From Fulvivirgaceae bacterium JP3-4 (GTDB lineage Bacteria; Bacteroidota; Bacteroidia; Cytophagales; Cyclobacteriaceae), in NCBI GenBank assembly GCA_029309925.1, contig JARKND010000001.1, positions 1,364,001 to 1,428,000 of the forward strand: a DNA stretch of 64,000 nt, read 5' to 3'. The first letter of the stretch is position 1. Each line of letters starts with the position of its first letter. A program made the position numbers and the translations under genes. This document shows, in pieces, positions 4,837 to 51,913 of this stretch. The notes beneath the pieces were generated by a model. That model did no database searches and was not told the DNA's origin. It saw only the letters and a list, made by a program, of their open reading frames with translations.

Positions 4837-7203
4837 CTAATCATCTTTAAGCCCGTCAACAGGACTTGCTTTTCCAACGGCCCATACTTGTGTTGAAACT
4901 GTAAACAATAGAACGAGCAGTAAAATGACGATGGCTGGAAGCGCAACTGTAGTTGTAATCGGCATATGATAATAGTAAATGGAGTCGAATAGCATTTTGT
5001 TGACCACGTAGCTAAGCGGAGCTCCCAGGACAAATGAAATCAGGAAAAGAATGAGGTACTGCCAGATTATGCTGATGGCGATATCACCGACTTGCGCACC
5101 CAGAATTTTTCTTACTGAAAATTCTTTTCTTCTGCTCGCTACATTTAATGCGACCAAACCGTATAGCCCCATCGTTGCTAACAAGACGGCCATCACAGCA
5201 AAGACCTTCCATACCTTCGCATGCTTGTCCAGCTGTTCGTAGTACGTCCCCCATACATCTTCCTGGTATCCGCCATCAAACGGTGTCTCTGGGTAGAGTT
5301 TCGTCCAGTGGGCTTTCATGGCTGCGGCCATCTTTTGTTCAGAACCCGGGCGAACATTTACCGACAGGTACCTGACGTCCTCCGGTCGGGACAAAATAAA
5401 AATGGTTGGGTTTACTTTGCGGAAGAAACTGAAGCTGTGAAAGTCTTTCACAATTCCGGCAATTGAATATTCTATGCTGTCAATCCGGAAAGTGGTTGAT
5501 AACGGGTCGGCAAGCAGTGAGGCGAAAGCTTCGTTCACAATAGCAACACGGTTATCGCTTTCGCTTTCTTTTAGGAAACCACGGCCATCCAGCAGCGCAA
5601 GGCCCATCGTTTCAAAATAGTGAGCATCAACAGCCAACTGATCCACCTCAAGCTGTCGGTCAGGCATCTTTACAATGCTTTTTGAATGGATTCTTCCGAG
5701 ATGGTCGTGCGATCCCGACACAGACTCAACGTCAGGCTCCTGCAAAATAAGCGCTGACATTTTCTCGAACGCTGCACGGTCAGGCACTGCAACATAGAGG
5801 ACGTGATGTGGATCGTATCCCCAGCTCCTGTTTTTCATGAAGTCAGTATTTTGACTGAACATCACACCTGCGGTGATCAGTATGCACGCAAGTACGAGTT
5901 GGATTCCCAGGAAGATCCTGGTCACCGGGTTGTCGCTGCGCAAATTCACTGCGCCCTTCAATATGCCAGCAACCTGGACGCGTGAGATGTAGAGCGATGG
6001 GTAGAGGCCACTTGCAACCGCAGTGATCAGCATAATGGCAGGCAGATAGATCCATAAGTTTGGATCCATCCAGGTGAATTCAAAGTTATGGTGCGTAATG
6101 TTTTCTATCCAGGGTATAAATACGAAGGTGCCGAGCACCAGCCCGAGCGCAAGCGCAAAAGCTGTTGTTACTGCGTTCTCGATCAGGAACTGAACGATCA
6201 CAATCCGCCTTGTTGCGCCAACCGTTTTGCGAACGCCAATTTCTTTTAGCCTTTTCGCGGCAGACACAATCGCAATATTGATGTAGTTAAAGCATGATAG
6301 TGCCAGCATAAATATCGAAATGATAGCCACGAATATTATGGACTGATATTTCCCATCTGAGCTTGCAGAGATATCATCGCGGATCGCGCTCGATCGCTGG
6401 TGGAGTGTGGCTAGCGGCACAAATGAAAATGAGTCGATTGCCCAGTCCTCACGCACAACCTTATTATGCAGCGTTTTGTATTTGTCCATTCCGCTTCTGA
6501 CTGCCGGCAGGTCTGATGGTTTCTCGATTTGCACGAGCGTTGCGTTTACGAAATTCGTCCAGTCATGTTCGTCAATGTTGGGATCGGCATATTGGATGTT
6601 TTCCAGGTTAACCAGGAAGTCAAACCCAATGGTGCGGGCGTCCGGGAACTTCGCGGCAACACTACTCACCCTAAAAACCTTGGCTGTGTTCTCGTTGAAC
6701 TTCAGCAACAGGTCCTGGCCAATCGCATCGTGGTCACCAAAGTATTTTGCTGCCATATCTTCGCTCAGGATAATACTGTTCACATCCGACAAGGAGCCGG
6801 GGTTTCCGGATTTTAACGGGAAGGTGAACATCTCAAGAAACTCCGGATCCGTGAACCGTACGCGTTCATGAAATACCTGGTCGTTATTCTTTACCACGAC
6901 ATTTTGGTCGTCTATACGGCAAATGCGTTTCACCTGCGCGAAATCCTGTCGCACCATTTCGCCTAACGGCCGCGGTGTCATGCCGAATTCCTGCAACGAT
7001 CCGTCACGGGCAGATGAAAACGTGATGAGGTACACCTCGTTTCGATTTTTATGAAACTGATCCGTGTTGTACGTCCATCGCGCGAAAGCGTACGCGAACA
7101 TGGCTATCCCGATGGCGATCGCCAACCCAAAGATGTTGATAAATGAATTGATGGGTGTCTTGAGCAGGCCGCGCAACGCGATCTTCAGGTAATTAAAAAG
7201 CAT
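4837..7203 (-). CDS. MacB/FtsX-like ABC transporter permease
   Basis: A 788-residue paralogue of the 2397 gene, on the opposite strand and divergent in sequence. It begins directly with a membrane helix (NIFGLAIAIGIAMFAYAF) and has two periplasmic cores. The coupling motifs are EIGVRKTVGA in the first half and EFSVRKILGA in the second. Four C-terminal-half helices are visible, including QLVLACILITAGVMF and VMAVLLATMGLYGLVAL. It lacks the cytoplasmic permease-prefix domain found in the two PadR-linked paralogues. Expression could start in the 243-bp gap to its right (7204-7446), where no coding signal is evident, or depend on read-through from the PadR operon. No ATPase is nearby. Substrate unknown. 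Confidence 0.92.
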   Translation of the reverse strand: MLFNYLKIALRGLLKTPINSFINIFGLAIAIGIAMFAYAFARWTYNTDQFHKNRNEVYLITFSSARDGSLQEFGMTPRPLGEMVRQDFAQVKRICRIDDQNVVVKNNDQVFHERVRFTDPEFLEMFTFPLKSGNPGSLSDVNSIILSEDMAAKYFGDHDAIGQDLLLKFNENTAKVFRVSSVAAKFPDARTIGFDFLVNLENIQYADPNIDEHDWTNFVNATLVQIEKPSDLPAVRSGMDKYKTLHNKVVREDWAIDSFSFVPLATLHQRSSAIRDDISASSDGKYQSIIFVAIISIFMLALSCFNYINIAIVSAAKRLKEIGVRKTVGATRRIVIVQFLIENAVTTAFALALGLVLGTFVFIPWIENITHHNFEFTWMDPNLWIYLPAIMLITAVASGLYPSLYISRVQVAGILKGAVNLRSDNPVTRIFLGIQLVLACILITAGVMFSQNTDFMKNRSWGYDPHHVLYVAVPDRAAFEKMSALILQEPDVESVSGSHDHLGRIHSKSIVKMPDRQLEVDQLAVDAHYFETMGLALLDGRGFLKESESDNRVAIVNEAFASLLADPLSTTFRIDSIEYSIAGIVKDFHSFSFFRKVNPTIFILSRPEDVRYLSVNVRPGSEQKMAAAMKAHWTKLYPETPFDGGYQEDVWGTYYEQLDKHAKVWKVFAVMAVLLATMGLYGLVALNVASRRKEFSVRKILGAQVGDIAISIIWQYLILFLISFVLGAPLSYVVNKMLFDSIYYYHMPITTTVALPAIVILLLVLLFTVSTQVWAVGKASPVDGLKDD

Positions 7204-48536: not shown

Positions 48537-49208
48537 TTACGACAATGCCTTAAACAATAAATCCTCAAGGAACTGACCTGTGAACTCGGCCCTGTTCTTT
48601 GGCGTTGCGTCTGTCAATCTGGGCAGGTTGAGACTAAAATATTGCTGATGGTGTGACGCTTCAATCAGTGTTGTGCTCAGCGATTTTGGATATTTGTATT
48701 TTGGATTGTAAGCGGAGATGACGGTTGCAATTTTAGCGCAAAGATCTTTATAAGGCTTAAACACTTGATCCTTATTGATCTCACTTACCTCTTTGACGAG
48801 ATATACTTTGCTGCTCTCCGCGATTACAATCGCGTTAAGATTTTTCTTGTTGTAGTCGAACTTGCCAGTACTTTCAGGAAGCTCGTGCGTGAGCAGTTTT
48901 ACGATCAGTTTCAGCCGTTCCTTGTTGTCTTTAATGTTCGTAAGCGTATAATCAACGAGGAACTCCATATAATTCCAGTACCAGTTAAGAATATAGAGGA
49001 GTAGCCGATGCTTGTTTTCGAAATAACGGTAGATTGTAGCTTCCGTGCTGCCAATTTCAGCTGCGAGTTTTTTGAAGGTAAACTGTTCGAACCCGAGTTC
49101 GTAGACCAGGTCAATGGCGTTTTTGACAATTTCGCGGCCCACCTCTGTGCTTTCGGGGTCGCGCAGGTAGATTTTATCATTGACTTTAAAAGTAACCTGA
49201 AAGTCCAT
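48537..49208 (-). CDS. TetR/AcrR family regulator
   Basis: The start at 49208 (MDFQVTFKVNDKIYL) gives 223 residues; the ORF extension to 49247 is not needed. The HTH is intact (IVKNAIDLVYELGFEQFTFKKLAAEIGSTEATIYRYFENKHRLL). The C-terminal domain is helical and Lys-rich (NKERLKLIVKLLTHEL, YNPKYKYPKSLSTTLIEASHHQQYF). It is divergent from the bestrophin-like gene at 49336, and an inverted repeat (49276-49292) lies between them. It probably represses that gene and the carbonic anhydrase downstream. The ligand is unknown. Confidence 0.9.
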   Translation of the reverse strand: MDFQVTFKVNDKIYLRDPESTEVGREIVKNAIDLVYELGFEQFTFKKLAAEIGSTEATIYRYFENKHRLLLYILNWYWNYMEFLVDYTLTNIKDNKERLKLIVKLLTHELPESTGKFDYNKKNLNAIVIAESSKVYLVKEVSEINKDQVFKPYKDLCAKIATVISAYNPKYKYPKSLSTTLIEASHHQQYFSLNLPRLTDATPKNRAEFTGQFLEDLLFKALS

Positions 49209-49275
49209 AATTGAGACAAATATCACGAAATGATAATAGTTTCGCAACCACTATATAAATTAATACATTTATTAT

Positions 49276-49292
49276 TGATAGTAATACTATCA
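49276..49292. promoter_or_regulatory. Inverted repeat between tetR and the bestrophin gene (candidate operator)
   Basis: TGATAGT-aat-ACTATCA is a perfect 7-bp inverted repeat with a 3-nt spacer. It lies 17 bp upstream of the predicted -7 box of the bestrophin gene, near its -33 region. The position suits TetR repression of that promoter. Confidence 0.65.
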
Positions 49293-49308
49293 TTTATCAA
49301 AGTTTTTA

Positions 49309-49316
49309 TATATTTG
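49309..49316 (+). promoter_or_regulatory. Predicted -7 element of the bestrophin promoter
   Basis: TATATTTG matches TAnnTTTG and is 19 bp upstream of the start ATG at 49336. It supports a promoter facing the bestrophin-carbonic anhydrase pair. Confidence 0.55.
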
Positions 49317-49335
49317 CCGCTGCAATACCGTTCAT

Positions 49336-50229
49336 ATGCTTTTAAATAAGGGAATTCCGTTTTCGTACATCGTAAGAAAAGTAAAACTGGAGTTGCTTTT
49401 TGTGACCGCAATCGGGATTGTGGTGTATTATGCAACGAGCCTGTTCAAGGACTACATTCCGCCAATGCCAATCGCAATCCCGGCATTCCTCGGAACAGCA
49501 ATCTCAGTGATCCTGTCCTTTAAACTGAATCAGTCTTATGATCGGTGGTGGGAAGCGCGAAAGATATGGGGCAGTATTGTAAACGACAGCAGGAATCTCG
49601 TCTTACAACTCCAGGCGTTTTTGAAGCCCGGAAATGATGACACCATCAGAAAGCTCACTTTTCGCCAGATCGCCTGGTGTTTTGCCCTGGGGAGGTCGCT
49701 GCGGGAGTTGGAGCCACTCCAAAACCTGAACGAGTATTTAAGTGAACAGGAATTGGACAAAATACGCGGGCACAGAAATAAGCCGCTCGCAATCCTTCAA
49801 CTCAATGTCAGAGATCTGTCCGAACTTAAACAAAAAGGGGAGATCGATGTTTTTAGTCTGGTACAGCTAAATACAACTTTAGTAAATCTCACAAATTCTA
49901 TGGGCATGGCGGAACGAATTAAGTCAACTGTATTTCCTGCGACATACAGACTTTTCCTTCACGGTTTCATCTATCTGTTTGTAACAACCCTCTCGATATC
50001 ACTAAGCGATATATCCAGTTACTTTGAAATTCCGCTGTTGATCCTGATCTCTTCTGCATTCTTCCTGCTGGAGCGGACTGCCACACACCTTCAGGATCCA
50101 TTTAGCAACAAGCCTACAGATACGGCCATGACCGCGATCGCGTCTACGATCGAGATCAATCTGAAGCAGTTGATTGGTGAAAAGCAGGTACCACAGCCAC
50201 AGACACCGAAAGAGTATTATCTAATGTAA
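49336..50229 (+). CDS. Bestrophin family ion channel (UPF0187)
   Basis: A 297-residue membrane protein. The start MLLNKGIPFSYIVRKVKLELLFVTAIGIVVYYATS leads to the bestrophin core, including the motif KLNQSYDRWWEARKIWGSIVNDSRNL (residues about 62-88), conserved in the bestrophin/RFP-TM family. C-terminal helices include FIYLFVTTLSISLSDI and LLILISSAFFLLERTATHLQDPF. Family members form pentameric anion channels that can pass bicarbonate or chloride. The carbonic anhydrase gene is 12 nt downstream, which favours bicarbonate as the permeant ion here. Bacterial homologues have also been reported as sodium-permeable, so the ion is not proven. Confidence 0.9.
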   Translation: MLLNKGIPFSYIVRKVKLELLFVTAIGIVVYYATSLFKDYIPPMPIAIPAFLGTAISVILSFKLNQSYDRWWEARKIWGSIVNDSRNLVLQLQAFLKPGNDDTIRKLTFRQIAWCFALGRSLRELEPLQNLNEYLSEQELDKIRGHRNKPLAILQLNVRDLSELKQKGEIDVFSLVQLNTTLVNLTNSMGMAERIKSTVFPATYRLFLHGFIYLFVTTLSISLSDISSYFEIPLLILISSAFFLLERTATHLQDPFSNKPTDTAMTAIASTIEINLKQLIGEKQVPQPQTPKEYYLM

Positions 50230-50241
50230 CAACTAAGCAAT

Positions 50242-50871
50242 ATGCGCACACAATCAAAGGAAACACAAAGTCACCTTACACCTGATCTTGCGATTCAAAT
50301 CCTGAAAGATGGCAATGGACGCTTCATTCAAAACCTGAAAGCGAACCGGAACTTACTGCAGCAGGTGAACGAAACGTCAACGGGTCAATATCCTTTCGCT
50401 ACCATCCTCAGTTGTATCGATAGCCGTACATCGGCAGAGCTCATTTTCGACCAGGGACTTGGTGATATCTTCAGCATCCGCATTGCCGGAAACATTCTGA
50501 ACGAAGATATTCTTGGCAGCATGGAATTCGCCACAAAAGTTGTGGGAACAAAGGTGATCGTTGTGCTTGGCCATACAAAGTGTGGCGCAATTGTGGGTGC
50601 CTGCAATCATGTTGAGATGGGGCACCTGACAACGTTGCTGAACAAGATTCAGCCTGCGATTTATAATGAGAAACAAACAAAAGATAATCGCACAGGTTCG
50701 AATGCAATGTTCGTACACAACGTGACAGAGATCAATGTTCACCTCACCATCGAAAGAATAAGAAGGGAAAGCCCGATCATTGCAGAACTGGAAAAGACAG
50801 GTCAGATTAAAATTGTCGGAGGCATGTATGACGTAGAAACCGGAGCGGTCACATTTTTCGACAAAAACTAA
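50242..50871 (+). CDS. Beta-class carbonic anhydrase
   Basis: A 209-residue protein. Zinc ligands are Cys in ILSCIDSR and His and Cys in VLGHTKCGAIVGAC; the catalytic Asp-Arg pair is in the CIDSR motif. GDIFSIRIAGN follows as in beta-CA. It catalyses CO2 + H2O to bicarbonate + H+ in the cytoplasm. No secretion signal is seen. The gap to the bestrophin gene is 12 nt, so the two should be co-transcribed. The likely job is to couple CO2 hydration with anion movement across the membrane, in pH or carbon supply. Confidence 0.94.
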   Translation: MRTQSKETQSHLTPDLAIQILKDGNGRFIQNLKANRNLLQQVNETSTGQYPFATILSCIDSRTSAELIFDQGLGDIFSIRIAGNILNEDILGSMEFATKVVGTKVIVVLGHTKCGAIVGACNHVEMGHLTTLLNKIQPAIYNEKQTKDNRTGSNAMFVHNVTEINVHLTIERIRRESPIIAELEKTGQIKIVGGMYDVETGAVTFFDKN

Positions 50872-50923: not shown

Positions 50924-50955
50924 AGCCCTGATCGTAAAGACAGGGCTTTTTCTTT
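50924..50955 (+). terminator. Rho-independent terminator after carbonic anhydrase
   Basis: Stem AGCCCTG (50924-50930) and CAGGGCT (50941-50947) with a 10-nt loop, followed by TTTTCTTT. It is a strong terminator, 53 nt after the carbonic anhydrase stop. Confidence 0.85.
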
Positions 50956-51328: not shown

Positions 51329-51913
51329 ATGACAATACAAACTATACGCCATCAGAATATTTTATCAGCACCTTTATCACGAGTGCCGGACGTGCGTAGC
51401 CCGGCTGACTTTGCAATTCCAGAACCACTTGGTGCCTCCGCGGTTCAGCAGTTCGTTTACGTGACAGGGGAGCAATTGAAGAGCCCGTTAACGGTGAAGC
51501 TACTTGCCGCCAGGCCCGCAATCAATGTTTTGATTTATGTCAGAACAAATTTCGCTGCAGACACCCTGGCGGAATATCTGAATCGCAGCGGGATCACTGC
51601 AGAATCTGTTCACGGAAACAAGAGCCAGCGCACAAAATCCCGGACCGTTTCAAATTTCATGAAAGGGTCGACCAGCGTCATTGTTGCCACAGAGAGTGCT
51701 GCATCGGCAATGGATGCCGAGGTGTCGACAGTCGTCAATTACGATCTGCCCTTATCGGCAGAAACCTACAGCAAACGGATAGAACGCTACAGCCAAACCG
51801 GAAAACTGAGACAAGTAATTTCACTGTGTGACATCTGCGACCAGCCGCGTCTTATCAACATCAAAAGGGCTTTACCGGATCAAATACAAATCGCTGAACA
51901 CGAGAACGTGTAA
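51329..51913 (+). CDS. Orphan DEAD-box helicase C-terminal domain (RhlE-like), degenerate motifs
   Basis: A 194-residue protein equivalent to only the second RecA-like domain of RhlE-type helicases. There is no domain 1, so no Walker A or DEAD motif. Residues about 62-85 correspond to motif IV (INVLIYVRTNFAADTLAEYL), then HGNKSQRTKSRTVSNFMKG, motif V (VIVATESAASAMD, in place of ATDIAARGID) and motif VI (YSKRIERYSQTGK, in place of YVHRIGRTGRAG). The arginine finger is lost, so ATP hydrolysis is unlikely. RNA binding or partner regulation is possible. It starts the cluster that runs to the sigma factor at 53751. Confidence 0.85.
   Translation: MTIQTIRHQNILSAPLSRVPDVRSPADFAIPEPLGASAVQQFVYVTGEQLKSPLTVKLLAARPAINVLIYVRTNFAADTLAEYLNRSGITAESVHGNKSQRTKSRTVSNFMKGSTSVIVATESAASAMDAEVSTVVNYDLPLSAETYSKRIERYSQTGKLRQVISLCDICDQPRLINIKRALPDQIQIAEHENV

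Follow-up and report, generated by a model that had tools for sequence, protein, structure and literature searches.

A predicted TetR-regulated bestrophin-carbonic anhydrase operon in Bacteroidota and its putative link to inorganic carbon

Genes and control signals of the locus

The 64-kb stretch of DNA from Fulvivirgaceae bacterium JP3-4 that was analysed here (the window) contains a gene for a TetR-family repressor of 223 aa (48537-49208, minus strand), divergent from two plus-strand genes that encode a bestrophin-family channel of 297 aa (49336-50229) and a beta-carbonic anhydrase (CA) of 209 aa (50242-50871). The bestrophin stop codon ends at 50229 and the CA begins with the ATG at 50242, which leaves a gap of 12 nt, and 127 bp separate the TetR start codon from that of bestrophin. 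All three reading frames are real, and both their arrangement and the 12-nt spacing agree with the initial annotation; that they form a TetR-regulated bestrophin-CA unit is virtually certain.

The TetR start was set at the ATG at 49208 because the MDFQV.. start is common to the homologues, and the part of the frame that extends upstream to 49247 is probably noncoding. The protein combines a TetR_N helix-turn-helix domain (PF00440, E=4.7e-9) with an all-helical fold in its AF2 model (pLDDT 93), the nearest folds being AmtR, QacR, SlmA, AibR, and FadR. The bestrophin belongs to Bestrophin_2 (PF25539, E=1.3e-58; 199.2 bits against a curated cut-off of 27), PF01062 being the wrong Pfam model for this protein. 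It matches the Klebsiella bestrophin KpBest (4wd7) in sequence, with E=7e-32 and 27-28% identity, and its AF2 model shares the KpBest fold (TM 0.84, rmsd 2.1). The CA (PF00484, E=1.1e-40) also matches NF011765 with 262.8 bits (cut-off 221), starting from model position 44, and has 2a5v as its nearest solved structure. Its zinc ligands and catalytic dyad are complete (C58, D60, R62, H111, and C114), and the active-site residues are conserved in 23 of 23 bestrophin-linked CAs. No signal peptide is evident on the window CA, which therefore presumably acts in the cytoplasm.

A terminator-like hairpin with a T-rich tail (50924-50947, plus strand; MFE -14 kcal/mol, z=-2.55), missed by a simple scan that admits only loops of 3-8, marks the end of the operon. 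Farther downstream, the frame at 51329-51913 encodes a 194-aa RhlE-like protein whose match to DEAD-box RNA helicases is confined to their C-terminal helicase domain; the N-terminal DEAD domain was not found in this frame.

Between the divergent genes lie the two elements pointed out in the initial annotation, namely, a perfect 17-bp palindrome, TGATAGTAATACTATCA (49276-49292), which is the predicted operator, and a Bacteroidota -7 box, TATATTTG (49309-49316, plus strand), which starts 16 nt downstream of the palindrome. Judging by the Bacteroidota promoter consensus, with its -7 and -33 boxes, the palindrome is predicted to overlie the -33 region of the bestrophin promoter, an overlap that is the classical position of a repressor. 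The palindrome alone is weak evidence because the window holds four further perfect odd 17-bp palindromes. Those at 1898-1914 and 5436-5452 share GTGAAAGTCTTTCAC, a likeness explained by coding because they are located within FtsX-like coding sequence and encode a VKDFH motif.

Recurrence of the unit and of its operator

The gene-neighbour survey that the initial annotation had proposed as a check covered Bacteroidota genomes whose bestrophins resemble that of the window, that is, named genomes with the closest bestrophins and surveys of further relatives, and it bears out the co-occurrence of bestrophin and CA in other genomes. The TetR-bestrophin-CA triad is present in 18 loci, window counted (17 further; two with identical proteins), with full triads in Flavobacterium, Sediminibacterium, metagenome-assembled genomes (MAGs) of Chitinophaga and Segetibacter, Crocinitomicaceae and Cyclobacteriaceae MAGs, and others; six additional loci combine bestrophin and CA without TetR. 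Among the 105 loci of this bestrophin clade, CA is the commonest conserved neighbour (25 loci) and TetR the second (17), and no other conserved partner is common to the bestrophins without a CA neighbour. The coupling between the two genes is tight, 12-28 nt in nearly all pairs, and in 59 relatives, a bestrophin and a CA of any subfamily occur within 1 kb of each other in 5 cases, against about 0.16 expected. On a tree of 104 bestrophins, the CA linkage is almost wholly confined to one 49-member clade and requires 12 changes, compared to 21.1 after shuffling (none of 500 shuffles was as low). Changes in TetR linkage accompany changes in CA linkage (6:0 among independent pairs in most pairings). 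Close orthologues, such as the one at locus L061 (68% identity), can lack both neighbours inside their 5-kb flanks. At another locus, L310 (G151:C13), a CA 87% identical to that of the window has no intact bestrophin or TetR alongside; upstream of it, a short frame (..TFDAVAFKKL) is a possible leftover of a TetR gene. A bestrophin-CA unit that is predicted to be switchable is a feature of many soil and water Bacteroidota, including the source organism.

The palindrome follows the TetR gene. Each of the 17 TetR-bearing triads inspected, window counted, retains it, with 9 of its 17 positions invariant, whereas all six bestrophin-CA pairs without TetR lack it; this pattern of retention with TetR and loss without it rules out a chance palindrome. 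The TAnnTTTG form of the -7 box recurs as well, starting 16-19 nt past the palindrome in 12 of the 17 triads. We infer from the conserved site that TetR dimers would occupy the palindrome, at the -33 region, and keep bestrophin and CA from being transcribed until a ligand lifts the repression. Some triads have a second, weaker site closer to the TetR start, which suggests that TetR may also regulate its own gene. That the repressor is the master of a wide regulon was rejected: the 5.8-Mb genome contains a single copy of the perfect palindrome, and once two mismatches are allowed, the site count does not rise above that of the control.

Other partners of the repressor and of the carbonic anhydrase

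All triads carry a TetR of one subfamily, which was found in 57 of 396 Bacteroidota genomes. Most of its members head a TetR-ABC transporter-HlyD operon that is preceded by the same palindrome, in many cases 24 nt upstream of the TetR start; across Bacteroidota, this autoregulated export operon, with the operator TAATAGTAnTACTATTA, is the usual setting of the subfamily (L228-L287). A variant of the exporter operon, detected in two genomes, encodes a CutA1-like small protein along with an ABC-membrane/HlyD-like protein; a TetR of this subfamily is encoded divergently, and the operator is again the same (L169 777-3013 in G428 and L170 1-2234 in G438). The remaining TetRs adjoin bestrophin-CA, CA alone, CA divergent from an ABC operon, SulP, or SulP-CA. 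In the set of 80 loci from which the TetR tree was built, using full frames, a near-perfect site (score at most 2) is present at 49, the mean score of shuffled sequences being 5.2. In the related sites TGTTAGT..ACTAACT and AGACAGT..ACTGTCA, both arms change symmetrically, as expected for the operator of a dimer, and the subfamily as a whole appears, by its sequences, to share one operator. The TetRs of bestrophin-CA loci form two separate clades, and a single clade is rejected (AU p=4e-5, in a test framed after the two flavours had already been noticed); the subfamily therefore joined bestrophin-CA on two or more occasions, or else was swapped.

Because most members of the subfamily control an ABC-HlyD exporter, the TetR ligand need not be related to CO2. 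The commonest partner of the repressor, with the same operator, being such an exporter, and the TetR model resembling QacR, FadR, AibR, and SlmA, the unit could belong to a general response to envelope stress or toxic compounds, in which TetR, like QacR and FadR, would respond to a lipophilic compound and bestrophin-CA would be one output among several. We consider this improbable: the subfamily pairs with CA or SulP-CA repeatedly, independently, and far above chance, and the fold matches are too broad to predict a ligand.

The relatives of the CA present another facet of the locus. Of 60 loci of its subfamily, drawn from the same taxonomic family, 31 have a SulP gene next to the CA (on its upstream side with a single exception) and four have a bestrophin there; a fifth bestrophin is found at a distance of 1.3 kb, next to a SulP-CA pair. 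The same TetR subfamily accompanies eight SulP-CA operons. The SulP from the divergent SulP-CA locus L259 has as its nearest solved structure 6ki1, which we take to be the cyanobacterial bicarbonate transporter BicA. BicA-like SulP permeases are active HCO3- importers in cyanobacteria. The bestrophin thus occupies the slot of these permeases in sister operons, and this observed exchange is the best evidence for an anion or bicarbonate role. The source genome itself has three CA-transporter loci, namely, the bestrophin-CA operon, a SulP-CA operon, and a SulP-CA fusion; the fusion encodes 725 aa at L371 2891-5065 (G000:C1), and the SulP-CA operon is located at L372 748-2951. None of the other bestrophins of this genome lies beside a CA.

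The transported ion, its direction, and known systems

The genomic context favours an anion, and the channel probably carries one whose transport is functionally linked to the CA. The pore itself is less telling. Animal bestrophins, with the neck I-F-F, conduct anions including HCO3- (PMC8496536), as do the human proteins (PMC8496536, PMC6708349). The window bestrophin has the neck T54/V58/F62 (T-V-F), without the middle Phe of the animal type. In KpBest, the only solved bacterial bestrophin, the neck is I-I-F and the channel conducts Na+, and the I66F replacement switches it to Cl- (PMC8496536); the equivalent of I66 is V58, so that the middle residue is aliphatic in both. The plant VCCN1, with the neck P-L-F, conducts anions (PMC9076864), and the animal-type motif is therefore not required for anion selectivity. 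With KpBest and VCCN1 pointing in opposite directions, the neck does not decide the ion; neck residues are also alike in CA-linked and unlinked bestrophins, except that T54 is stricter.

Given KpBest and V58, the window protein might be a Na+ or non-selective channel, with the CA serving general pH or ion stress, so that the two genes would share a stress signal rather than a substrate, a possibility with which the control of ABC-HlyD exporters by the same TetR subfamily is compatible. The anion selectivity of VCCN1, the replacement of SulP anion permeases by bestrophin beside the CA, and the tightness of the CA coupling make this reading doubtful.

The account that we prefer, an inorganic-carbon operon repressed by TetR, seems somewhat better than an even bet as a whole explanation. 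Through the bestrophin pentamer, an anion (HCO3- being the likeliest) would cross the membrane passively, and at the mouth of the channel, CO2 and HCO3- would be equilibrated by the cytoplasmic CA. Through a passive HCO3- channel in an inside-negative plasma membrane, the flow of HCO3- is outward. Under that potential, CO2 would enter or be produced, HCO3- would leave, and H+ would be kept, and the outcome would be the venting of inorganic carbon along with acidification or buffering of the cytoplasm. The RuBisCO large subunit was not found in the source genome, whereas control genomes gave a signal, and DabA was not found there either. A carbon-concentrating mechanism (CCM) linked to RuBisCO is thus ruled out, and because neither protein is present and the passive path runs outward, we favour inducible CO2/HCO3-/pH homeostasis over carbon supply, with the balance tilting slightly toward efflux or a pH role rather than uptake. 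On the same grounds, the initial suggestion of a bacterial analogue of the algal bestrophin-CA carbon supply is not supported, and the analogy with the algal CCM is weak. The broader proposal of regulated bicarbonate transport coupled to CO2 hydration survives in part: the module is regulated, and the recurrence of its CA and TetR subfamilies beside a BicA-like SulP, where the bestrophin would otherwise stand, makes a link to CO2 or bicarbonate likely, bicarbonate itself being a candidate ion.

Uptake could nevertheless serve anaplerotic carboxylases at low CO2, the channel admitting HCO3- and the CA equalising it with CO2. Sister operons do pair BicA-like importers with the same CA and TetR subfamilies, and the algal bestrophins BST1-3 are induced at low CO2 (PMC6708349). 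Bicarbonate acquisition of this kind is nonetheless unlikely, given that an inside-negative potential opposes HCO3- entry and cannot be overcome by a passive anion channel, that RuBisCO and DabA are lacking, and that the genome already has the SulP-CA fusion and operon. A bolder form of the homeostasis reading, in which the TetR subfamily senses inorganic carbon or pH and gates an HCO3--conducting bestrophin coupled to CA, as a CO2/HCO3- venting valve of heterotrophic Bacteroidota, is offered only tentatively; if true, it would give a bacterial bestrophin its first physiological role.

Bacterial bestrophins serve as structural models for human disease channels, and in the open-access literature searched, we found no natural role for any of them. 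Nor did that search, which is not proof of absence, yield a paper on an operon of bestrophin and CA in bacteria, whether or not a TetR gene accompanies it, consistent with the initial remark that the triad was not known as a described system. The pairing with CA gives a bacterial bestrophin a testable job, the first found in the literature searched; the conserved CA operon, predicted operator, and SulP-bearing sisters offer a direct route to testing whether bestrophins began as bicarbonate channels, and Bacteroidota gain a candidate regulator of CO2/pH physiology.

Pairs of a transporter and a CA are already known, namely, SulP-CA and the algal bestrophins with CAH3 (PMC6708349). The Chlamydomonas CCM resembles the window unit in being regulated and in its functional pairing of bestrophin (BST1-3) with carbonic anhydrase, but there, an alpha-CA in the thylakoid lumen feeds RuBisCO and HCO3- flows toward the lumen, whereas here, in a genome without RuBisCO, a plasma-membrane bestrophin would work with a cytoplasmic beta-CA. 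KpBest has the same fold and differs in being a Na+ channel with a distinct neck. DAB2/MpsAB likewise combine a membrane protein with a CA-type subunit for bacterial CO2/HCO3-, but the proteins are unrelated, and DabA is absent from the source genome. In SulP-CA operons and fusions, a CA of the same beta-CA subfamily comes immediately after an anion transporter gene, and a TetR of the subfamily seen here is present in some; there, the transporter is a SulP permease and TetR is encoded downstream, whereas here, a bestrophin channel precedes the CA and TetR is divergent.
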